A stretch of DNA of 15,187 bases from an uncultured Comamonadaceae bacterium (GTDB lineage: Bacteria; Pseudomonadota; Gammaproteobacteria; Burkholderiales; Burkholderiaceae), in contig CAMLSD010000108.1 of assembly GCA_946482595.1 (NCBI GenBank), forward strand, positions 1 to 15,187. The letters run 5' to 3'. Position 1 is the first letter of the stretch; each line of letters starts with the position of its first letter. Under the pieces are notes generated by a model. The model was not told the origin of the DNA and searched no databases. It saw only the letters and a list, made by a program, of their open reading frames with translations. Positions 1 through 11,337 of the stretch are shown here, one piece after another. The translations under genes and the position numbers were made by a program.

Positions 1-976
1 CCTGGCGGGCCGAGTCGGCCGACTGCTTCACGGTGCCGGTGAGCTGCTCCATCGACGAGGCGGTCTGCTGCAGGTTCGAGGCGGTCTGTTCGGTGCGCGC
101 GCTCAGGTCCTGGTTGCCGGTGGCGATTTCAGTCGAGGCGGTGGAGATGCTGTCGGTGGCGGCACGCACCTGCGACACCATGGACTTGAGCGAGTCCTGC
201 ATGCGGCCCATCGCTTCGACCAGCTGGCCGATCTCGTCGCGGTGGGTCACCACCACGTCGTTCGACAGGTCGCCGTGTGCAATGCGCTCAGCAAGGTCCC
301 GCGCCTGGGTCAGCGAACGGGAGATGGCGCGCACGCTCAGGGTGGTCAGTGGAATGAGCACCACCAGGGCGATCACCACCGATGCGGCGATCACGGCCAG
401 CAGCGTGGACGTGCGCTCGTCGAGCGCCGCCTGCGTGGCTTGCAGGTCTTCACGCGATCTGGCAGACAGCGCGGCCAGTTCACGATCGGCCCCCTGCGTG
501 AACTCCTTGACGCGCCCGGCGTAGGCCCCGGCTGCGCCACCGTCGATCTGGGCCCGTTCGACCTGCTCCAGCACGGGGGCGATGCCTTCCTCGTACTGCT
601 TCAGATACGCCAGCACCTTGTCGACGGTCTGGGCCACGTCGGCGCTGTCGCCGTGGGTGTCCTTGACCTTGCCCAGCTCGGTGCGCAGTTCACCCAGCGA
701 TTGCTGCCAGGACTTTCGCAGCTCCGCAACTTCGTTGGTGTTGTTGAAGCTGATGATGACTTCTTTCTCGAAGCGCTGCAGATCACCCAGGGTGGTGCGC
801 AACTGCCCGGTGTCGGCGATGGCCTGCACCTTGTCCTCGAGCAGACTTTTCAGCGTCACACGCGTGTTGTCCAGTGCCCAGTAGCCCAGCAGCCCGATGG
901 CCGTGAGCAGCACCAGCGAGAAGACGGTACCGAAGTACAGCCGGGTGCGGATCGAGACGGTGCCCAGTTTTGACAT
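1..976 (-). CDS. Methyl-accepting chemotaxis protein, 3' part missing (mcp1)
   Basis: This is a transmembrane chemoreceptor that would control CheA kinase through CheW. The first 325 residues are visible; the reading frame stays open to the window edge. It has a short cytoplasmic N-terminus, a first membrane segment near residues 14-34, a periplasmic region (about 35-190) that looks helical and resembles a four-helix-bundle ligand domain, a second membrane segment near 192-214, a HAMP domain (about 215-268, with HGDLSNDV and RDEIGQL) and the start of the signalling helix ([17 protein letters not shown], about 288-304). The ATG start at 976 is preceded by GGAGAG at good spacing. The signalling helix is nearly the same as in the two receptors upstream, while the sensor region differs, so the ligand is probably different; which ligand cannot be told. 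It appears to be transcribed separately, because a strong hairpin lies between it and the next receptor. Whether it ends in a WETF pentapeptide is unknown. Confidence 0.93.
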   Translation of the reverse strand, partial: MSKLGTVSIRTRLYFGTVFSLVLLTAIGLLGYWALDNTRVTLKSLLEDKVQAIADTGQLRTTLGDLQRFEKEVIISFNNTNEVAELRKSWQQSLGELRTELGKVKDTHGDSADVAQTVDKVLAYLKQYEEGIAPVLEQVERAQIDGGAAGAYAGRVKEFTQGADRELAALSARSREDLQATQAALDERTSTLLAVIAASVVIALVVLIPLTTLSVRAISRSLTQARDLAERIAHGDLSNDVVVTHRDEIGQLVEAMGRMQDSLKSMVSQVRAATDSISTASTEIATGNQDLSARTEQTASNLQQTASSMEQLTGTVKQSADSARQ

Positions 977-1136
977 AGGGACTCTCCAACGATTTGTTAC
1001 GTACAGGAACCTTAGCAATCGATGCGCCAGCGTGTGGCTGCTGATGTGGCAAACGCTTCCTTGGCGACATCGCGCTGCCGCAACCGTGACTTCCTGCTCG
1101 TTTCACGGCGTCGGGCGCGATGAGGCGCTCCACGTA

Positions 1137-1328: not shown

Positions 1329-3056
1329 TCAGAAGGTTTCCCAGTTGTCGTCCGCGCCGGGCTTCGGAGGCGGTGGTGACGAGGGACGGCTCTGCGCCTG
1401 GGGGGCTGGGGCGGCCTTGTCAGCCAGTGGGGCGGGGGGCGGCACAGGAACAGCCGCAGGGCGCGTGGCCTGCTGCACCCGTCCGATGATCGCCTGGGCC
1501 GCCTGGGTGGCTTGCGCGACACGGAACTGCCCCACCACGTCGGCCAGGCGGTGAGCCTGCTCCTTCAGCGATTCGGCTGCGGCGGCCGACTCCTCGACCA
1601 GCGCCGCGTTCTGTTGCGTCATCTGGTCGAGCTGGTTCACGGCGGTGTTGACCTGGCCGATGCCCGAGCTTTGCTCGGCGGCTGCCGCGGTGATCTCGCC
1701 GATGATGTCGGCCACACGCTGCACCGAGGCGACGATCTCGCTCATCGTGGTGCCGGCGTCCTGCACGAGCTTGGAGCCCGATTCGACCTTCTCGACCGAG
1801 GCGCCGATCAGCGTCTTGATTTCCTTGGCGGCCTGGGCCGAGCGCTGGGCGAGGTTGCGCACCTCACCGGCGACGACCGCAAAACCACGGCCCTGTTCAC
1901 CGGCACGTGCGGCTTCGACCGCGGCGTTCAGCGCCAGGATGTTGGTCTGGAAGGCGATGCCGTCGATCACGCCGATGATGTCGGAGATCTTCTTGGAGGC
2001 GGCATTGATCTCGTCCATCGTGGTGACGACCTGGGAGACGACCTGGCCACCGCGGGCGGCCACGCTGGAGGCCGAGGAGGCGAGCTGGTTGGCCTGACGG
2101 GCCGAGTCGGCCGACTGCTTGACGGTGCCGGTGAGTTGCTCCATGGAAGACGCGGTCTGCTGCAGGTTCGAGGCGGTCTGTTCGGTGCGGGCGCTCAGGT
2201 CCTGGTTGCCGGTGGCGATCTGGGTCGATGCAGTGGAGATGCTGTCGGTGGCCGATCGCACCTGGGTGACCATGCGGCGCAGCGCGCCCTGCATCTCGGA
2301 CAACGCGCCGAGCATCTGACCGAGTTCGTCCTTGCGGTCGACCACCACGTCTTGCGACAGGTCGCCGCTGGCGATCACCTTTGCAGCCTGGGTGGCAGCT
2401 CCGAGCGGCTGCATCACCGAGCGGGTGATCAACCAGGCCAGTGCGGCCCCCAGGGCCACGGCCAGGGCGGTGAGCACACCCAGCACCGACTGGGCGGTGG
2501 TAATGCTGGTGCCGGTGGCCACGATGGCGGCGTCGTTCAGTTCACGCTGCAAGGTGGCATAGGCCTCGATGCCACGCGCGTACTCGGTCGCAGCCGGCAG
2601 CAGGCGAGAGTCGATCAACGGTGCGGCGGCCATCATGTCGCCTTCCTTCAGCAGCCTGAACACCTCGTCGCGGGCCTCGAGATAGGCCTTGGCATTGGTC
2701 AGGGTCTGGGCCAGCAGGGCCTTGCCCCGCTCGCTGCGGGTCTTGTCCTGGATCTCCGTCTGCAGCGCCACGATGCGCTTGCTGGTCTCGGCCATCAGCG
2801 GGTCGAAGTAGTCCTTGAGCGATTGCTGACCACCGGTCTTGGCGATGGCCATCACCCGGGTGAGGTTGGTGGTGGTCAGGCTGTGCCACTCCGAGGCCAG
2901 CGCGGTCATGTTCTGGCGCTGCGCGATCTCGGACTCGGCATGCCGGATGGCCTGCAGGCGCCACATGGCCGTGGCGGCAATGAGCACCGACAGCGTGAGC
3001 ATCGCGGCAAAGGCGCCGCCCAGGCGAACGCCGAGTTTCATGTCAGTCAACTTCAT
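1329..3056 (-). CDS. Methyl-accepting chemotaxis protein with WETF tether (mcp2)
   Basis: This 575-residue chemoreceptor has a membrane segment near 13-33, a periplasmic helical region (about 34-188, resembling a four-helix-bundle ligand domain), a second membrane segment near 190-212, HAMP (about 212-265, with SGDLSQDV and RKDELGQM) and a class-I-type cytoplasmic signalling domain. The hairpin tip has [20 protein letters not shown] (370-388 region), as in Tar and Tsr, and the methylation helices contain [18 protein letters not shown] and [19 protein letters not shown] Pro/Ala-rich linker of about 50 residues ends in the pentapeptide NWETF, the known docking peptide for CheR and CheB. I chose the ATG at 3056 because AGGA lies seven bases before it and the signal-anchor helix follows directly; an in-frame GTG at 3149 would add 31 polar residues with no membrane or domain function. 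It is the last gene of the che operon. The signalling domain is almost identical in DNA to that of mcp3. The ligand is unknown. Confidence 0.95.
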
Positions 3057-3175
3057 GTCCGATTCCTCATCGACACATCGGGACGCGGATTCAAGCCCTG
3101 CGCGTTCCCGGGGGGTAAGGTCTGGGCCGCTTGGTGCCCGCTGATTCACTGAAGCATCGATGAGCGACGGGTCAC

Positions 3176-3215: not shown

Positions 3216-5015
3216 TCAGAAGGTCTCCCAGTCGTCGTCGCCGCCTGCGGCGGCTGCCGCTGGCTTGGCCGAAGCAGGTGCCGCTGCAGCGGCCTTGGCC
3301 GGGGCGGCCGGCACCACGGACGACAGCACCGGCACATCGGCACCACCGCCCTTGGCCTTGGTTGCCGTGCCTTCGGCCGCCTTGCCTGCCGCGGGTGCGG
3401 CCGGGCGGTTGCCGTGGGCTGCATCGCGCACGCGCCCGATCACGGCCTGGGCTGCCTGGGTGGCCTGCGCCACGCGGAACTGGCCCACCACTTCGGTCAG
3501 GCGGTGCGCCTGATCCTTCAGCGATTCGGCCGCGGCGGCCGACTCCTCGACCAGCGCCGCGTTCTGCTGCGTCATCTGGTCGAGCTGATTGACGGCGGTG
3601 TTGACCTGGCCGATGCCCGAGCTCTGCTCGGCGGCTGCCGCGGTGATCTCGCCGATGATGTCGGCCACACGCTGCACCGAGGCGACGATCTCGCTCATCG
3701 TGGTGCCGGCGTCCTGCACGAGCTTGGAGCCCGATTCGACCTTCTCGACCGAGGCGCCGATCAGCGTCTTGATTTCCTTGGCGGCCTGGGCCGAGCGCTG
3801 GGCGAGGTTGCGCACCTCACCGGCGACGACCGCAAAACCACGGCCCTGTTCACCGGCACGTGCGGCTTCGACCGCGGCATTGAGCGCGAGGATGTTGGTC
3901 TGGAAGGCGATGCCGTCGATCACGCCGATGATGTCGGAGATCTTCTTGGAGGCGGCATTGATCTCGTCCATCGTGGTGACGACCTGGGAGACGACCTGGC
4001 CACCGCGGGCGGCCACGCTGGAGGCCGAGGAGGCGAGCTGGTTGGCCTGGCGGGCCGAGTCGGCCGACTGCTTGACGGTGCCGGTGAGCTGCTCCATCGA
4101 AGACGCGGTCTGCTGCAGGTTCGACGCGGCCTGTTCGGTGCGCGCGCTCAGGTCCTGGTTGCCGGCGGCAATCTCGGTGGAGGCGCCCTGGATGGACTCG
4201 CTCGAGCTCTGCACCTGGCGCACCAGCTGCACCAGCCGCTGCTGCATCGCGCCCAGTGCGGCGGCCAGCTGACCGACCTCGTCACGGCGGTCGAGTTGCA
4301 CCACTTCACCGGTCAGGTCACCCTCGGCAATGCGCCGGGCCATGTCGGTGGCCTGGTGCAGCGGACGGGCCAGGGTGCGTGCGATCAGCACGCCGAACAG
4401 CGCAGCCATGGCGGCGGCCAGGCCCACGCCGATCATGATCGAGGCACGGGTCAGCTGGCGAGCGTTGTTGGCGGCCGCCTGCCGCTCCTTCAGCATGGCC
4501 GCCTTGGCGGCGTACAGCTTGTCGTAGGCGGCACGCACGGCGTCCATCGCTGCCTTGTCCTTGCCTTCGGCAAAGGCATCGAACACCAGCGTCATCGCCA
4601 GCGGATCACCGCCTGCGTTCTTTCGCAGGTCGATCAGGTGTTCGCCGACCGTCTCGAAGGCCTTGGCCTGGGTTTCCATCTCCTTCAGCAACGCGGCTTC
4701 TTCTTCGTTGGCCTGTGCCTTGAGCTGGGTCATCAGGGGGCCGAATGCGGCCTTGCCGTTGTTCCAGGGGGCGAGAAAACCTTCTTCACCTGTCAGCAGG
4801 AAACCGCGCATGCCGGTCTGCATGTTCACCAGCGAGCGCATGGCGTTGTCGCCGTCGCCGATGAAGCGGTAGCTGTCCTCGTTGAGCCGGTCGCTCGCTT
4901 CCTGGTTCAGGTTGCTCCACAGGATGAAGCCCCCGACGGCCACGAACAGGGCCACGAGGCTGCCGAAGGCCAGGGCGAGCTTGTGGCTCACACGAAGGTT
5001 GGCGAGATGGCGCAT
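3216..5015 (-). CDS. Methyl-accepting chemotaxis protein, CHASE3-like sensor, DWETF end (mcp3)
   Basis: This 599-residue chemoreceptor has a membrane segment near 14-33, a periplasmic domain (about 34-190) containing [17 protein letters not shown] (65-81), which is the typical signature of a CHASE3 sensor domain, a second membrane segment near 191-213, HAMP (about 213-267, with EGDLTGEV and RRDEVGQL), a Tar/Tsr-like signalling domain (tip near 367-395) and an Ala-rich tail of about 60 residues ending in DDDWETF. The last five residues match the xWxxF CheR/CheB tether. The ATG at 5015 has GGAG six bases upstream. The gene lies 111 bases after cheW1 and 159 bases before the mcp2 start, on the same strand, so it is probably co-transcribed with cheYAWW. 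The sensor domain is unrelated to that of mcp2 while the signalling domain DNA is almost identical to it, which points to recent duplication or gene conversion. The stimulus is unknown. Confidence 0.95.
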
Positions 5016-5126: not shown

Positions 5127-5651
5127 TCAGGCGCTGGCCAGGCCCATCGACGGCGAGAGGATCAGTCGCTCGATGTCGAGCAGGATCATCAGCCGTTCGC
5201 CGACCTGGCCCAGGCCGGTGATGTACTGTGCGTCGATCACCGAGCCCATCTCGGGCGCGGGCTTGACGGCGTCAGCGGGCAGTTCCATCACGTCGCTCAC
5301 ACTGTCCACCACCACACCGACGACACGGTCGCCCACGTTGAGGATGATCGACACGGTGAAGCCGTTGTATTCGACCTTCTCGCACGCAAAACGCATGCGC
5401 ATGTCCACGATCGGCACGATGGTGCCGCGCAGATTGACCACGCCCTTGATGTAGGGCGGCGAGTTGGCGATGTGGGTCGGTTCCTCGTAGCCGCGGATCT
5501 CCTGCACCTTCAGGATGTCGATGCCGTACTCCTCGGCACCCAGACGGAAGGTCAGGTACTCCTTGGGCATGGCCGTGAGGGTCTTGCTGGCGCCGGCGCT
5601 GCGGGCTGCAGCACCGGGCACCATCTTCTGGATCGGATCCATCATGCCCAT
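5127..5651 (-). CDS. cheW: CheW chemotaxis coupling protein (copy next to mcp3)
   Basis: CheW is the soluble adaptor that links receptors to CheA in the polar arrays. This 174-residue protein has a loose N-terminal extension of about 28 residues followed by a single CheW domain (about 31-170). The conserved receptor/CheA contact region is visible: EYGIDILKVQEIRGYEEPT (41-59) and GVVNLRGTIVPIVDMRMR (70-87), including the NLRG arginine. The ATG at 5651 has AGGAGA seven bases upstream; internal Met codons at positions 3 and 4 lack an equally placed site. It lies 40 bases before the neighbouring cheW2 stop in gene order and 111 bases before mcp3, inside the che operon. By hand alignment it is about 78 % identical to the second CheW over 144 gap-free residues, so the two are paralogues from a tandem duplication. 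Confidence 0.96.
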   Translation of the reverse strand: MGMMDPIQKMVPGAAARSAGASKTLTAMPKEYLTFRLGAEEYGIDILKVQEIRGYEEPTHIANSPPYIKGVVNLRGTIVPIVDMRMRFACEKVEYNGFTVSIILNVGDRVVGVVVDSVSDVMELPADAVKPAPEMGSVIDAQYITGLGQVGERLMILLDIERLILSPSMGLASA

Positions 5652-5691: not shown

Positions 5692-6180
5692 TCAGGCGTC
5701 GATCAGCCCGAGTTCGGGGCTGGCGATCATGCCTTCGATGTCGAGCAGGATCAGCATGCGCTCGCCCACCTGGCCCAGGCCGATGATGAAGCGTGCGTCC
5801 ACGGCGGACTGGATTTCCGGGGCCGGCTTGATCGCCTCGGTGGGGATCTCCAGCACGTCGCTGACCGAGTCCACCACCGTGCCGACCACACGGTTGCCCA
5901 CCGTCAGGATGATCGACACCGTGAAGCCGTTGTATTCGACCTTCTCGCAGCCCAGGCGCATGCGCATGTCCACGATCGGCACGATGGTGCCGCGCAGGTT
6001 CACCACACCCTTGATGAAGTCGGGCGCATTGGCGATGCGGGTGGGCTGCTCGTAGCCGCGGATTTCCTGAACCTTCAGGATGTCGATGCCGTATTCCTCG
6101 CCACCGAGCCGGAAGGTGAGGTACTCCCGGGCACGCGCCTTGGCGTTCTTGTCGAAGCTGTCCATCTTGCCCATGGTCAT
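5692..6180 (-). CDS. cheW: CheW chemotaxis coupling protein (copy next to cheA)
   Basis: This second CheW adaptor of 162 residues has a CheW domain covering about 19-160, with EYGIDILKVQEIRGYEQPT (29-47) and GVVNLRGTIVPIVDMRMR (58-75). It lacks the longer N-terminal tail of its neighbour. The start is uncertain between two in-frame ATGs: the one at 6180 has GGGGAA seven bases upstream, and the one at 6174 has AAGGA seven bases upstream; the difference is two residues. It is 48 bases downstream of cheA. Variable positions relative to the other copy cluster towards the C-terminal end and around residues 44-57, so the copies could differ in receptor or CheA preference; that is inference. Having two adaptors beside two receptors and one kinase is common in multi-receptor arrays. 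Confidence 0.96.
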   Translation of the reverse strand: MTMGKMDSFDKNAKARAREYLTFRLGGEEYGIDILKVQEIRGYEQPTRIANAPDFIKGVVNLRGTIVPIVDMRMRLGCEKVEYNGFTVSIILTVGNRVVGTVVDSVSDVLEIPTEAIKPAPEIQSAVDARFIIGLGQVGERMLILLDIEGMIASPELGLIDA

Positions 6181-6228: not shown

Positions 6229-8436
6229 TCAGTGGCGCGAGCGCCGCACCAGGCTGCCCACGTCCAGGATCAGGGCCACGCGGCCGTCACCCATGATGGT
6301 GGCGCCCGAGACGTCGCTGACCTTGCGGTAGTTGGCCTCGAGGTTCTTGACCACCACCTGCTGCTGGCCGAGCAGCTCGTCCACCATCAGGGCCACCCGG
6401 CCGCCTTCGGCCTCGGCCACCACCATGATGGAGCTGTTCTTTTCCCAGTCGAAGCGGGGCACGTCGAAGACACGCTCCAGCTCGACCACCGGCATGTACT
6501 CGGAGCGCACCTCGACCACCCGGCCCGAACCACCGATGGTCTTGACCATCTCGGGCTCGACCTGGAAGCTCTCGACCACCGAGGACAGCGGCAGGATGTA
6601 GACCTCTTCGCCCACCCCCACGCTCATGCCGTCCATGATGGCCAGCGTCAGCGGCAGGCGCACCGAGACCCGCATGCCGTAGCCCTCGGCCGAGTCGATC
6701 TCGACCGTGCCGTTGAGCGACGCGATGTTCTTCTTGACCACGTCCATGCCCACGCCTCGGCCGGAGACGTCGGTGACCTGGTCGGCGGTGGAGAAGCCCG
6801 GTTCGAAGATCAGGCCCCAGACCTCCTGGTCCGTCATGGTGTCGGGCGCGTGGATGCCGCGCTCGCGGGCCTTCTTCAAGAGCTTGTCGCGGTTCAGGCC
6901 ACGGCCGTCGTCGCGCACTTCGATGACGATCGAGCCGCCCTGGTGCGAGGCCGACAGCGTGATGGTGCCGGTCTCCGACTTGCCCTTGGCCAGGCGCTCG
7001 TCGGGCATCTCGATGCCGTGGTCGCAGGAGTTGCGCACCAGGTGGGTCAGCGGGTCGGTGATCTTCTCGACCAGGCCCTTGTCCAGTTCGGTGGCTTCGC
7101 CCTGCGTGACCAGCTCGACCTTCTTGCCCAGCTTGGCCGCCAGGTCGCGCAGCATGCGCGGGAAGCGGTTGAACACCACCGACATCGGGATCATGCGGAT
7201 CGACATCACCGCTTCCTGCAGGTCGCGGGTGTTGCGGTCCAGGTCGGTCAGGCCGGCCAGCATCTGCTGATGCACGACGGGGTCGAGGCCGCGGCTGTTC
7301 TGGGCCAGCATGGCCTGGGTGATCACCAGTTCGCCGACCAGGTTGATGAGCTGGTCGACCTTCTCGACCGCCACGCGGATGGTCGCGGCATCCAGGGCGG
7401 CACCGGCCTTGGCCTCGCCGCGGGCGGCGGGCTTGGCAGCGGCTGCCGGCTTGGCGGCCGGGGCGCCAGGCGCTGGCGTGACGTTGGGCGAGCCGGGGGC
7501 GTTCTCGAAGAATCCGTAGCCCGGGTCGCCTTCGACACGCACAGGGGCAGGCTCGGGGGCGCCGGGCGCGTCGTCGAAGAAGCCATAACCGGGGTCGCCC
7601 GCCGTCGAGGCCGCCGGTGCGGATGCCTGGGGTTCGTCAGCCGGTGCGGCGACAGGCTCGGCCGGCGCGGCATCCAGCGGCTTGAAGACCACCTGCTCAC
7701 GCGACACATGGAAGGTGAACAGATCCAGCAGGTCGGCCTCGGTGCTCTTGGTGACCACCTTGAAACGGCGCATGCCGTCCTGGGCCTGGCCGCCGTCCAG
7801 CGGTTCGATCGTGCCCAGGTCGACGATTTCCTTGAACAGCTCCTGCAGGTTGTCGGCCTGCGAGGGGTCGGGCAGCGGGCCGACGACCAGCTCCAGCGTG
7901 CGTGCGCCCGTGGGTGCCGTTGCGGCGGCCGGTGCGGGGGCGGCCACAGGTGCGGCCACCGGGGCCGCAGCGACGGCGGCAACGACGGGCGCGGCCACCG
8001 GGGCCGGCGGCACTTCGCCGGCCACCATGGCGCGGATGTTGAACAGCAGCTCGGTGGTGTCGACCACGTCGCCGGTGCCGGTCTGGTGACGGGCCAGCTG
8101 GGCCTTCAGGGCGTCGCCGGAGGCCAGCAGCACGTCCACCATCGAGGCGGTCGGAGTCAGTTCATGGCGGCGCAGCTTGTCCAGCAGCGTTTCCATCTGG
8201 TGGGTCAGCTCGGCCACGTCGGCAAAACCGAAGGTGGCGGCGCCGCCCTTGATCGAGTGCGCGCAGCGAAAGATCGCATTGAGCTCCTCGTCGTCGGCCG
8301 CCTCGATGTCCAGTTCGAGCAGTTGCTGCTCCATCCGGTCGAGGTTCTCACCGGCTTCTTCGAAGAAGACCTGGTAGAACTGGCTGAGGTCGATGCCAGC
8401 GCTGAGCTGGGAGCCTTCTGAGGACATTTCGCCCAT
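6229..8436 (-). CDS. cheA: CheA chemotaxis sensor histidine kinase
   Basis: CheA autophosphorylates under receptor and CheW control and passes phosphate to CheY (and CheB). The 735 residues contain, in order: a P1/Hpt domain with the phosphorylatable His60 in CAHSIKGGAATFGF; an Ala/Pro-rich linker (142-178); a compact domain at about 180-255 in the position of the CheY-binding P2 domain; a second linker (256-350) with the motif GDPGYGFF repeated twice; the P3 dimerisation helices (about 352-415, VDQLINLVGELVITQAMLAQ); the P4 ATPase with N-box LVRNSCDHGIE (466-476), G1 DDGRGL (509-514) and G2 GRGVGMDVV (559-567); and a C-terminal CheW-like P5 domain (about 597-735). All catalytic motifs are intact. 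The ATG at 8436 has AGGAG six bases upstream. It lies 40 bases after cheY and before the two cheW genes. The length is somewhat above the about 650 residues of E. coli CheA because of the linkers. Confidence 0.98.
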   Translation of the reverse strand: MGEMSSEGSQLSAGIDLSQFYQVFFEEAGENLDRMEQQLLELDIEAADDEELNAIFRCAHSIKGGAATFGFADVAELTHQMETLLDKLRRHELTPTASMVDVLLASGDALKAQLARHQTGTGDVVDTTELLFNIRAMVAGEVPPAPVAAPVVAAVAAAPVAAPVAAPAPAAATAPTGARTLELVVGPLPDPSQADNLQELFKEIVDLGTIEPLDGGQAQDGMRRFKVVTKSTEADLLDLFTFHVSREQVVFKPLDAAPAEPVAAPADEPQASAPAASTAGDPGYGFFDDAPGAPEPAPVRVEGDPGYGFFENAPGSPNVTPAPGAPAAKPAAAAKPAARGEAKAGAALDAATIRVAVEKVDQLINLVGELVITQAMLAQNSRGLDPVVHQQMLAGLTDLDRNTRDLQEAVMSIRMIPMSVVFNRFPRMLRDLAAKLGKKVELVTQGEATELDKGLVEKITDPLTHLVRNSCDHGIEMPDERLAKGKSETGTITLSASHQGGSIVIEVRDDGRGLNRDKLLKKARERGIHAPDTMTDQEVWGLIFEPGFSTADQVTDVSGRGVGMDVVKKNIASLNGTVEIDSAEGYGMRVSVRLPLTLAIMDGMSVGVGEEVYILPLSSVVESFQVEPEMVKTIGGSGRVVEVRSEYMPVVELERVFDVPRFDWEKNSSIMVVAEAEGGRVALMVDELLGQQQVVVKNLEANYRKVSDVSGATIMGDGRVALILDVGSLVRRSRH

Positions 8437-8476: not shown

Positions 8477-8839
8477 TCAGCGGATGACCTTCTGGATGAC
8501 TTCGATCAGCTTGGTCGGATCGAACGGCTTGACCAGCCAGCCGGTGGCGCCGGCGGCGCGTCCGGCCTGCTTCATCTGGTCACTGGACTCGGTCGTCAGG
8601 ATCAGGATCGGCGTGCTCTTGAACTGCGGGTTTTCCCGCAACTTCTTGGTCAGGCTGATGCCGTCCATGCGGGGCATGTTCTGGTCGGTGAGCACCAGAT
8701 CGAAGCTGCGACCGCCGGCTTTCTCGAAGGCGTCCTGCCCGTCGACGGCTTCAACAACGTTGTAGCCGGCGTTCTTCAGGGTGAAGGCGACCATCTGACG
8801 CATGGAGGCGGAATCGTCCACCGCAAGGATTGAATGCAT
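8477..8839 (-). CDS. cheY: CheY-type single-domain response regulator
   Basis: CheY carries the signal from CheA to the flagellar motor. The 120 residues are a stand-alone receiver: acidic pair Asp8-Asp9, phosphoacceptor Asp52 (LTDQNMPRMDG), Thr82/Thr83 and Lys104 in WLVKPF. At the position of the E. coli switch residue Tyr106 there is Trp101, an aromatic replacement. There is no DNA-binding or other output domain. The ATG at 8839 has GGAG six bases upstream. It is the first gene after the sigma-28 promoter and is followed 40 bases later by cheA, so CheA is its likely phosphodonor. Whether it binds FliM directly or acts as a phosphate sink cannot be decided here, because a second, motor-type CheY may exist elsewhere in the genome. 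Confidence 0.96.
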   Translation of the reverse strand: MHSILAVDDSASMRQMVAFTLKNAGYNVVEAVDGQDAFEKAGGRSFDLVLTDQNMPRMDGISLTKKLRENPQFKSTPILILTTESSDQMKQAGRAAGATGWLVKPFDPTKLIEVIQKVIR

Positions 8840-8862: not shown

Positions 8863-8889
8863 ATATCGGAAGAATGGGAGACTTCTTTA
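8863..8889 (-). promoter_or_regulatory. Sigma-28 (FliA) flagellar-class promoter of the che operon
   Basis: On the minus strand TAAAG (8889-8885) is followed after exactly 15 bases by CCGATAT (8869-8863). This matches the core of the flagellar consensus TAAAG-N15-CCGATAA at 11 of 12 bases with perfect spacing. Transcription would start near 8856 and leave a short leader of about 17 bases holding the cheY ribosome-binding site. The TAA of the -35 is also the stop codon of the upstream CheZ-like gene. Confidence 0.75.
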
Positions 8890-9345
8890 GAAGAGTTCGA
8901 TGGACCCGGCGTCCATTTCGGACTGGGTCACCGGATTCGGGCGCAGGGGCGGCGTCTCGACCACCGCCTCTCCGTCCTCGTCATCTCCCATCGCGTCGCG
9001 TGCCAGCTGGTCGGCGCAGTTGCGCAGTCGGCGATTGGTATGGACGATCAGTTGGGAGGCCATGTCCTGGAACTGCAATGCCGTGACCGCGGCACCCAGG
9101 CTCTGCATCACCGGGGCGAGCTCAGCGGTCTGGATGCGGTGGTCGGTGGCAGCCTGCATCAGGCCCTCCATTTGCTGCACTGCACTCGAAAAGCGCAGCA
9201 TCAGCGTGTCGCAGGCATCGGCCAGCAGGCCATGCAGCCGTTCCAGGTCGTTGGTCGCGGTCATCAGGTGGTCCTGAAGGTCGGCGGCCATCAGCAGGGG
9301 GATCGGCGAACCCGGGTCCGAGCCGGAAGTGTCGTTCGTCAGCAT
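8887..9345 (-). CDS. Small CheZ-like protein, candidate CheY-P phosphatase
   Basis: This 152-residue soluble protein has no signal peptide or membrane segment. Two long helical stretches (about 22-66 and 71-118) suggest an antiparallel helical hairpin. In the second helix, ALQFQDMASQLI (89-100) contains Asp94 and Gln98 spaced as D-x-x-x-Q, like the catalytic Asp143 and Gln147 of E. coli CheZ (motif around QDFQDLTGQ). A polar, acidic tail (119-147) ends in DAGSIELF, reminiscent of the CheZ C-terminal peptide that binds CheY (ending DSLGF). It is shorter than CheZ (214 residues). The ATG at 9345 has GGAG five bases upstream. It is 47 bases upstream of cheY on the same strand and would be co-transcribed with it by read-through. 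Family knowledge says remote CheZ homologues keep only this motif; the phosphatase role is inference. It could instead be another chemotaxis-associated helical protein. Confidence 0.6.
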   Translation of the reverse strand: MLTNDTSGSDPGSPIPLLMAADLQDHLMTATNDLERLHGLLADACDTLMLRFSSAVQQMEGLMQAATDHRIQTAELAPVMQSLGAAVTALQFQDMASQLIVHTNRRLRNCADQLARDAMGDDEDGEAVVETPPLRPNPVTQSEMDAGSIELF

Positions 9346-9535: not shown

Positions 9536-10708
9536 ATGAGTGCTTCGCCGGCCCACCGCACCCTGCGGGTCCTGCATCTGGAGGATTCGGAGCTGGACCA
9601 TCACTTGATGATGACCCAGCTGCAGCGCTCAGGCCTGGACGTGCTGGCCCTGCGCGTCGAAAGCGCGGCCGCCTTCGAGGCGGCGCTGGCCCAGGGCTGT
9701 GAGGGCAAACCCTGGGACGTGGTCTTGTCTGACTTCAACCTGCCGGGGTTTTCGGGCCTGCTGGCGCTTGAACTGCTCAAATCCAGCGGGCAGGTGCTGC
9801 CGTTCATCATCGTCTCCGGCGAGATCGGCGAGGACGTCGCCGTGGAGGCCATGCGCAACGGCGCCAGCGACTACCTGCTCAAGAACAACCTGGCGCGCCT
9901 GGTGCCGGCCACGCTGCATGCGATCGAGGCGCACCAGGCCATCCGCGCCAAGCAACTGGCCGACCGGGCACTGTCGCAGTCCAAGGAGCGGCTGCGCGAG
10001 CTGGCCCAGCATCTGCAGACCAGCGTCGAGATGGAGCGCGCGGCCATCGCACGCGAGATCCATGACGACGTCGGCGGCTCCTTGACGGCGCTCAAGTTCG
10101 ACCTGGCGTGGATCTCCCGCCACGCCCGCGACGAGGCGGTGCAGCAGCGTGTGCAGTCGGCACTCGAAACCGTCAGCTATGCCCTGGAGGCCAGCAAGCG
10201 CATCATGCACAACCTGCGCCCGGCCATCCTGGAGCAGGGGCTGGTGGCCGCGCTGCAATGGATGACCAGCCGCTTCGAGCGGCGCACCGGCATCCAGGCC
10301 ACCTTCCGGGCCAGCCATGAACACCCCCAGCTGCCGGCCGGGGTACCGCTGGTGGCCTATCGCACCGCCCAGGAGGCGCTCACCAACGTGTCCAAACATG
10401 CGCAGGCCACCCGGGTGAACGTCGACCTGACGCTGGCAGGCGGTATCCTGTCCCTGGAGGTCAGCGACAACGGTCGCGGCCTGAGCGCCGAAGACCTCGC
10501 CAAGGCCCGCTCGTTCGGCATCCGCGGCCTGCATGAGCGGGCCGGCACGGTGGGCGGCTGGGTCGACCTCAGCAGCGGGCCGGGCGGGACGACGCTGATT
10601 CTTTCGGTCCCGCTGGAGGCGGAAGGGGAGGGTGCATTCGGTGGCGAAGAGGGGTCGGACGGTGCTAAAAGATCCGACGACGATCCGACGTTCTGGGGAG
10701 ATCTATGA
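9536..10708 (+). CDS. Soluble hybrid histidine kinase, receiver plus HisKA_3/HATPase
   Basis: This 390-residue protein has no membrane segment. Residues 10-130 form a receiver domain with Glu16-Asp17, phosphoacceptor Asp66 (LSDFNLPG) and Lys116. A helical connector (130-165) leads to a HisKA_3 dimerisation domain of the NarX/DesK class with His176 in AREIHDDVGGSLTALKFDL, and then a HATPase domain with N-box QEALTNVSKHA (279-289), DNGRG (311-315) and GIRGLHERA (328-336). A charged tail (361-390) has no recognised role. The receiver-first layout means the kinase is probably controlled by an upstream phosphodonor or interacts with another kinase; which one is unknown. The ATG at 9536 has no clear ribosome-binding site and no in-frame alternative before the upstream stop at 9503. 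It overlaps the next gene by ATGA, so translation is coupled to its partner regulator. Confidence 0.92.
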   Translation: MSASPAHRTLRVLHLEDSELDHHLMMTQLQRSGLDVLALRVESAAAFEAALAQGCEGKPWDVVLSDFNLPGFSGLLALELLKSSGQVLPFIIVSGEIGEDVAVEAMRNGASDYLLKNNLARLVPATLHAIEAHQAIRAKQLADRALSQSKERLRELAQHLQTSVEMERAAIAREIHDDVGGSLTALKFDLAWISRHARDEAVQQRVQSALETVSYALEASKRIMHNLRPAILEQGLVAALQWMTSRFERRTGIQATFRASHEHPQLPAGVPLVAYRTAQEALTNVSKHAQATRVNVDLTLAGGILSLEVSDNGRGLSAEDLAKARSFGIRGLHERAGTVGGWVDLSSGPGGTTLILSVPLEAEGEGAFGGEEGSDGAKRSDDDPTFWGDL

Positions 10709-11337
10709 TCCGCGTCATTCTGTGTGACGACCACGCGCTGATCCGGCGGGGCATACGCGACACCTTGTCCGACCTGCCCGACATCGAGGTGGTCGGTGAG
10801 GCGGGCGACTATGCCGAACTGCGCTCGCTGATGCGCGACAAGGGCGGCTGCGACGTGCTCGTGCTGGACATCAACCTGCCCGGGCGCAGCGGGCTGGACG
10901 TGCTGCACGCGCTGAAGGACGAAGGCTCGCCGGTGCGGGTGCTGGTGGTGTCGATGTACCCCGAGGACCAGTACGCCATCCGGGCGCTGAAGGCCGGCGC
11001 CTATGGTTACGTCAACAAGGGCGGCGATCCAGCCCAGCTGGTTGCGGCCGTGCGCATGGTGGCCCAGGGGCGCAAGTACGTCACCGCCGACATGGCGCAG
11101 ATGCTGGTCGAAAGCCTGACCACGCCCAGTTCCGAGGCAGCCCACGAGCGGCTGTCCGACCGTGAGCTGCAGACGCTGGTCATGATCGCCTCGGGCAAGC
11201 GCCTGTCCGACATCGCCGAGGAGCTCACCCTCAGCCCCAAGACGGTCAGCGTCTACCGGGCGCGGGTGCTTGAAAAGCTCGGCTTGTCGAACAACTCCGA
11301 ACTCACCGTCTACGCCATCCGCAACGGCCTGGTCTGA
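10705..11337 (+). CDS. NarL/FixJ-family response regulator
   Basis: This 210-residue transcription factor has an N-terminal receiver (2-120) with Asp8-Asp9, phosphoacceptor Asp55 (LVLDINLPG), Ser83 and Lys105, and a C-terminal LuxR-type helix-turn-helix (about 147-208) with LSDRELQTLVMIASGKRLSD and the recognition helix SPKTVSVYRARVLEKL. The ATG overlaps the TGA of the kinase gene and has GGGGAG four bases upstream. It is the expected phosphate acceptor of the kinase by cognate-pair logic. The regulon is unknown: the pair sits between a chemotaxis operon and a urea-transport operon, and nothing in the sequence links it firmly to either. Resemblance to small regulators such as UvrY/NarL is only at the family level. 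Confidence 0.94.
   Translation: MIRVILCDDHALIRRGIRDTLSDLPDIEVVGEAGDYAELRSLMRDKGGCDVLVLDINLPGRSGLDVLHALKDEGSPVRVLVVSMYPEDQYAIRALKAGAYGYVNKGGDPAQLVAAVRMVAQGRKYVTADMAQMLVESLTTPSSEAAHERLSDRELQTLVMIASGKRLSDIAEELTLSPKTVSVYRARVLEKLGLSNNSELTVYAIRNGLV

Follow-up and report, generated by a model that had tools for sequence, protein, structure and literature searches.

A small relative of CttP/McpA-like chemoreceptors encoded before an F7-type cheY, a candidate CheZ-like phosphatase

The 152 aa protein P0002, encoded in a 15,187 nucleotide stretch of DNA (the window, meaning here the whole stretch that was analysed), is a member of an undescribed family. Judged from profile comparisons, it is a relative of the CttP/McpA-like chemoreceptors, both of its helical arms being homologous to theirs. 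With moderate confidence, its sequence is read here as that of a receptor-derived, CheZ-like candidate phosphatase dedicated to the adjacent F7-type CheY. The features of the window are listed below with their coordinates, strand and the basis of each assignment.

8887..9345, minus strand: candidate CheZ-like protein P0002, 152 aa (translation; precedes cheY in 80 of the 80 best related loci)
9145..9297, minus strand: helix 1, residues 17-67 (AlphaFold2; hhalign of residues 19-60 to the McpA-like N-terminal arm)
8989..9129, minus strand: helix 2, residues 73-119, with the CheZ-like motif (AlphaFold2; hhalign to the McpA C-terminal arm)
9064..9066 (codon 9066-9064), minus strand: D94, candidate catalytic Asp (sequence; D in 121 of 121 proteins)
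9052..9054 (codon 9054-9052), minus strand: Q98, candidate catalytic Gln (sequence; Q in 121 of 121 proteins)
8890..8937, minus strand: C-terminal tail NPVTQSEMDAGSIELF, residues 137-152, proposed docking peptide (sequence, conservation)
8477..8839, minus strand: cheY, module-linked ('F7-type'), 120 aa, likely substrate (PF00072; CheY tree)
6229..8436, minus strand: cheA, with Hpt, H-kinase_dim, HATPase and CheW domains (Pfam)
5692..6180, minus strand: cheW (PF01584)
5127..5651, minus strand: second cheW (PF01584)
3216..5015, minus strand: chemoreceptor ending DWETF (ORF list; MCP signalling sequence read in translation)
1329..3149, minus strand: chemoreceptor ending NWETF (ORF list; MCP signalling sequence read in translation)
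2-1018, minus strand: third chemoreceptor, running off the window (4HB_MCP_1 and HAMP)

The small gene and its conservation

An earlier note on this DNA had described a 152-residue, mostly helical protein with D94, Q98 and a SIELF end, encoded directly upstream of cheY. All of this is present, and the strand, not given earlier, is minus (9345-8887); the plus-strand reading of 8887-9345 is a different frame. The minus-strand translation runs ...AVTALQFQDMASQLIVHTNRRL...PNPVTQSEMDAGSIELF, with PNPVTQSEMDAGSIELF as the C-terminal end. Downstream on the same strand, 47 bases separate the P0002 stop from the start of the cheY ORF at 8839. The AlphaFold2 monomer (mean pLDDT 78) is a helical hairpin of two long helices, residues 17-67 and 73-119, followed by a low-confidence linker and a short C-terminal helix at residues 141-145. 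Upstream of helix 1 the model has a short N-terminal tail only, from which the absence of a membrane segment is read. Structure searches with Foldseek and VIA-align gave generic helical hairpins (PI3K iSH2, designed proteins) among the 50 matches listed; CheZ was not among these 50, which is evidence neither way. When the family profile was compared with the sequences of solved structures, the best matches were designed armadillo repeats (E ~0.01), with tropomyosins weaker, and CheZ was absent from the 20 matches up to E 10.

No family in Pfam or NCBIfam includes P0002. Matches to P0002 at E<=0.001 comprised 5218 proteins, and none of the best 120 listed carries a Pfam domain; most of these are unnamed or 'hypothetical protein', as the earlier note had anticipated. 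The D..Q pair, for which conservation in orthologues had been expected, occurs in 121 of 121 proteins, these being the query and the 120 best of the 5218 and so close relatives, and FHD replaces FQD in 2 of the 121. In genome contigs 482 related loci were found, and the best 80, from Caldimonas, Rubrivivax, Rhizobacter, Roseateles, Sphaerotilus and the like, were kept for locus counts. A cheY more than 70% identical to that of the window follows the module gene on the same strand in all 80, after a gap of 21-98 bases (median 53). All 80 also keep the D..Q pair, and 79 keep the tail G-[SD]-[IV]-[DE]-LF, the exception, L018, ending GSITLF. This conservation of the pair and the tail indicates that the P0002 ORF and its motif are more than chance. 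A cheA gene was seen in 72 of the 80 loci, and the remaining 8 end ~600 bases or less after cheY.

Further observations concern the surroundings of the gene. A receiver-kinase gene and a LuxR-type regulator gene (window 9536-11337, plus strand) lie divergent from it; of the 80 related loci, 79 show the divergent sensor-kinase gene and 78 the regulator, and the one locus lacking the kinase starts too close. A sigma-28-like site, TAAA-N15-TCCGATAT (8863-8889, minus strand), starts at the P0002 stop codon, before cheY, with 2 mismatches to the consensus. The window holds 7 such sites with <=3 mismatches against 1.5 expected, and in the related loci the gap and upstream region match the sigma-28-like consensus better than one base shuffle per locus. 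The signalling parts of the window's receptors share long identical stretches, as after recombination.

Kinship with CttP/McpA-like receptors and the shared gene slot

Genome searches with the family profile returned, besides true orthologues, proteins of ~400 residues that are short chemoreceptors, with the PF00015 MCP signalling domain in 33 of 33 relatives checked; P0002 has no PF00015 match in Pfam. A receptor or module match was found in 36 of 274 genomes of the class and 104 of 250 of the order. One of the receptors, P0236 from Sulfurimicrobium lacus, is named CttP in its source record and is a relative of the McpA-like receptors; its predicted model, with long helices and a low pTM (0.35), was set aside.

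Both arms of these receptors align with P0002. Against the McpA C-terminal arm, the P0002 family gave an hhalign Prob of 99, E 4.2e-18 (single comparison) and a score of 109 over 76 columns reaching into the tail (Prob 99.4 with more rows), while controls reached 19.1 (column-shuffled maximum) and 18.8 (reversed). Residues 19-60 of P0002 matched the N-terminal arm of McpA-like receptors with Prob 90, E 1.6e-6 (single comparison) and a score of 38.3, against a shuffled maximum of 15.5 and 17.7 reversed. Two 'QDR' rows and one fragment were left out of the hhalign rows, and the N-half comparison was also made without L105. The N-terminal arm carries the motif DAxxxLxxxF, which in P0002 comprises D43, A44 (at least 90% kept), L48 and F52 (invariant), and these align with the invariant D121, A122, L126 and F130 of P0236. 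D342 and Q346 of P0236 align with D94 and Q98. Since F52 and D94 are 42 residues apart and F130 and D342 212, ~170 residues including the tip are absent from P0002.

The C-terminal arm of the matched receptors carries LQF[QE]DxxxQ and the tail, and the C-terminal end of P0236, HNPVTQEQMAAGDIELF, is nearly the same as the P0002 tail. For one McpA-like receptor the 120 best relatives were compared: all 120 have QF[QEH]DxxxQ exactly 114 residues past the tip sequence LALNA, and 119 have the tail at the C-terminus; these relatives are close to each other, so this conservation is partly expected. The distance of 114 recurs in 25 of 25 more diverse receptor rows, which were chosen for motif and tip and not for distance.

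Within the order, the slot before F7-type cheY is taken by either a whole receptor or a free module. This was seen in 27 new loci (L214-L240) drawn from the best matches of the order search, 23 of which have a cheY start 11-104 nt past the last codon of the module (stop included). Of these 23, 12 are without the receptor tip and 11 have it. In L225, cheY is 872 nt away from the module, and at the fetched locus of L238 no cheY was seen. L219 and L239 carry the motif and fall outside the 23 scored cheY-linked loci; L219 ends GSVALF. L233 reads LQSHDLVNQ, with D..Q kept. The order to which the nearest named relative of the window belongs has both the receptor and the free module.

In a class-wide sample of eight receptor regions (L205-L212), L210 has the order receptor-cheY-cheA-cheW, L205, L206 and L211 have cheR-cheD-cheB-receptor, and in L207 the receptor is divergent from cheY-cheA. 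No cheY-cheA cluster was found in the 18-19 kb around the McpA-like receptor of L208, L209 and L212, so that linkage of the receptor form is not strict. These layouts fit the stage 1 and stage 2 F7 layouts in the excerpted text of PMC7184735. L124 and L128, also from the class-wide sample, encode free-standing proteins (226-234 residues) with LQFEDIVQQ and the tail KGDVTLF, possibly another free module form.

We infer that the change ran from receptor to free module, because it is the receptor form that the literature gives for V. cholerae and P. aeruginosa. On the CheY tree, the stand-alone label needs two changes, of which the well-supported branches force only one. According to excerpts of PMC7184735, the transition to stage 3, the F7 cluster of beta-proteobacteria, was accompanied by loss of mcpA-like genes.

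The adjacent CheY and the likeness to CheZ

The CheY proteins behind free modules most like that of the window are ~72-98% identical to the window's CheY, those behind further free modules 63-68% and those behind McpA-like receptors 61-75%, falling to 48-56% in 'F8-type' clusters and 35-42% where cheY is linked to cheZ. A CheY tree was built from 59 chosen rows, made up of 15 drawn at random from the CheY most like the window's, labelled rows, and 9 cheZ-linked CheY from ten hand-picked loci. These 9 stand apart from the other 50 with a support of 100/100. In the genomes examined, CheZ thus goes with a different CheY than the module-linked one. The best solved-structure match of the window's CheY is 4h60/4hnr, which we take to be V. 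cholerae CheY4. According to excerpts of PMC3774744, CheY4 belongs to a cluster without cheZ and is expected to use CheZ poorly; stage 1 and 2 F7 clusters, in the parts of PMC7184735 available, have their own cheY and no cheZ.

The window cluster itself would be F7-type, a class taken here from gene order and CheY similarity. Its order is cheY-cheA-cheW-cheW-receptors, and the window ends before any cheR, cheD or cheB. Behind the orthologue in L134 the F7 order cheY-cheA-cheW-...-cheR-cheD-cheB is seen, and L136 has the same without a detected cheW. In Caldimonas caldifontis, cheR, cheD and cheB are on another contig.

A variant of the favoured explanation, not opposed to it, is that the adjacent CheY serves as a phosphate sink whose turnover P0002 raises, the flagellar CheY being reached indirectly through a shared CheA. 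Such a sink has been suggested for the fast autodephosphorylating CheY1 of Comamonas testosteroni, encoded by a gene numbered next to cheA (PMC6391922, as excerpted), and the CheA-type kinases found in C. caldifontis number only two, the neighbour of the small gene and another within a frame of 2039 residues. Comamonas CheY1 may, however, belong to another CheY group than the window's, and the variant is held tentatively, at somewhat less than an even chance.

A second receptor type was observed in L198-L204, with QFQDRxxQ in 7 of 7 and an [ED]ITFF tail in 5 of 7. One such 'F8-type' receptor, L204, matches PF04344 weakly (22.0 bits, cut-off 30.7, E 1.7e-4; 1 of 4 scanned), and the CheZ model matches two 'F8-type' receptors of one genome below the cut-off, with E 3.4e-6 and 6.7e-5.

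The earlier note took P0002 for a shortened CheZ. The catalytic type of helix that it recognised has held up in motif, invariant D and Q, hairpin layout and cheY adjacency, but the assignment to CheZ as a shortened form has not. The spacing of D94 and Q98 is indeed that of CheZ, ALQFQDMASQ fitting the pair AXXFQ and DXXXQ given as the CheZ motif in excerpts of PMC7750401. In an HMM-HMM comparison with CheZ the score was at noise level (21.9, against up to 22.0 for shuffles and 22.3 reversed). PF04344 matched none of 40 members of the small family, P0002 itself having no match in Pfam or NCBIfam, and none of 33 McpA-like proteins. Against the N-half of CheZ, the N-halves scored 12.0 (small family) and 17.2, which is no match.

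The McpA arm gave a higher score against CheZ, 31.7-32.7 and, with the small proteins added, 34.2 (Prob 45-63), with D and Q in register. Controls scored 19.1-21.7 (ordinary MCPs), 19.1-26.1 (best of 60 shuffles) and 23.5 (reversed). The signal spans only ~58 columns, and for hhalign the CheZ rows were kept if the motif could be recognised, as it could in 42 of the 43 extracted. Because families were followed up or filtered for FxDxxxQ, the likeness to CheZ may be convergent. Unrelated helical models also match McpA-like proteins, with E down to 2.5e-6, and the CheZ search of genomes gave a B. subtilis match below the cut-off, so weak helical matches mean little.

All 15 relatives tested have an ordinary CheZ that scores above the PF04344 cut-off; in G014 it occupies two adjoining frames. 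P0002 as a replacement for CheZ is therefore ruled out.

That P0002 is nevertheless a true, very divergent CheZ with a shortened hairpin, as first proposed, would account for the shared motif pair, the layout of hairpin, linker and C-terminal helix, the C-terminal Phe and the alignment in register of McpA arm and CheZ; the hairpin of A. caulinodans CheZ is also shorter than that of E. coli CheZ (PMC7750401, in excerpt). Against this, there is no Pfam or NCBIfam match, the direct profile score equals its controls, the N-half matches McpA arms and not CheZ, and the relatives tested have ordinary CheZ as well, making this origin very improbable. That P0002, as a receptor relative, works like CheZ is plausible from its sequence.

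The C-terminal tail, a proposed mechanism and comparison with known systems

The earlier note had also compared the SIELF tail with the CheY-binding tail of CheZ. The tail is conserved and ends in Phe, which agrees, but the same hexapeptide occurs on McpA-like receptors, on CheD and on certain GGDEF proteins. When 26 chosen genomes were searched at the DNA level for G[SDN][IV][DE]LF followed by a stop, near variants included and Ser written TCN missed, 22 of them yielded a total of 31 exact matches; the reversed pattern yielded 1. Thirty tail loci (L168-L197) comprised 11 McpA-like receptors, 6 CheD, 9 GGDEF proteins, 1 other MCP and 3 that are probably chance. Pfam confirmed one CheD, two GGDEF proteins and the CheD of C. 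caldifontis (L213:1019-1777), which ends GAGSIDLF; the other tail proteins were assigned by sequence resemblance. Seven of the nine tail-bearing GGDEF proteins are in beta genomes, and 6 of these 7 lie ~3 kb from a CheA-type kinase (a ~2000-residue frame).

That CheD and GGDEF proteins also bear the tail argues that CheY may not be what it binds. From its sequence it looks like a docking peptide whose partner would be common to a number of chemosensory and c-di-GMP proteins, with CheY and a polar hub protein as candidates. In excerpts of PMC7184735, the McpA C-terminus is conserved and its role 'important yet unclear', and P. aeruginosa McpA, with Val at the second position, binds none of 4 CheRs. 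A role as a CheR-binding pentapeptide was dropped because of this Val-bearing McpA. The tail strings had no match in open-access full text.

Under one alternative, P0002 is a docking or scaffolding protein and not an enzyme, its tail and hairpin bringing CheY or the array to a polar hub or shared partner, with D94 and Q98 as a binding face. The occurrence of the hexapeptide on CheD, GGDEF proteins, another MCP and McpA-like receptors is in keeping with such a role, and catalysis by P0002 is predicted from sequence. The exact preservation of D and Q with CheZ spacing in an AXXFQ context argues otherwise, as do the tight bond of the free form to one cheY and the lack of the D..Q helix in the tail-bearing CheD and GGDEF proteins, and a purely docking role is considered unlikely.

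On the favoured reading as a candidate phosphatase, P0002 would be the free-standing membrane-proximal part of a CttP/McpA-like chemoreceptor, lacking the N-terminal membrane segment and the ~170 hairpin residues with the CheA-binding tip, its two remaining arms linked via a short turn. Two copies would form a CheZ-like four-helix bundle and offer D94 and Q98 to the phosphorylated form of the CheY whose gene follows after 47 bases, Q98 positioning the attacking water and D94 holding CheY. Linker and conserved tail may tether CheY, or another partner, to the phosphatase. The F7-type CheY branch would lose its phosphate fast in this way, and the ordinary CheZ would serve the flagellar CheY.

A broader proposal, with chances just short of even, is that CttP/McpA-like receptors carry a candidate CheZ-like phosphatase site in their own bundle, at the fixed 114 residues from the tip, where the receptor could switch CheY-P removal beside the kinase, and that some Burkholderiales have trimmed the receptor, at its original position, to a free phosphatase. 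No description of a CheZ-like site on McpA/CttP was found in the open-access full text, as far as the available parts extend. If the proposal is true, the missing phosphatase of F7 CheY would be supplied in cis or in trans, giving an off-switch to a signalling branch thought to have none; the conserved McpA C-terminus would gain a role, and the 'lost' mcpA-like gene would persist in some bacteria as its C-terminal part. G[SD][IV][DE]LF would then mark CheD, GGDEF proteins and candidate phosphatases for a single partner that chemotaxis and c-di-GMP proteins share, to which the peptide is a lead. A stated open question on McpA and F7 would become directly testable with one small protein.

CheC, CheX and FliY have a fold and motif different from those of P0002. 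They have only the proposed function in common with it, and P0002 has no Pfam match. The 'F8-type' receptors (L198-L202), whose class name is inferred, are ~400-residue proteins comparable to P0002 in motif (LQFQDRxxQ) and in lying immediately ahead of cheY-cheA, here in second chemosensory clusters of these genomes; their [ED]ITFF tail differs, and they keep the tip. CheZ (PF04344) has in common with P0002 the AXXFQ and DXXXQ motifs on the second helix of a hairpin, a flexible linker, a short Phe-ending C-terminal helix and a cheY neighbour. Unlike CheZ, P0002 gives no profile match, has a shorter hairpin and an N-half unrelated by profile and goes with another CheY group; the CheZ proteins compared mostly end VDDLLASLGF, from which its tail differs. 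The CttP/McpA-like receptors differ from P0002 in their membrane segment, MCP signalling tip and length (~400 against 152 residues), but share with it both helical arms, QFxDxxxQ, the NPVxQxxM..G[SD][IV][DE]LF tail and the slot before the same type of cheY.
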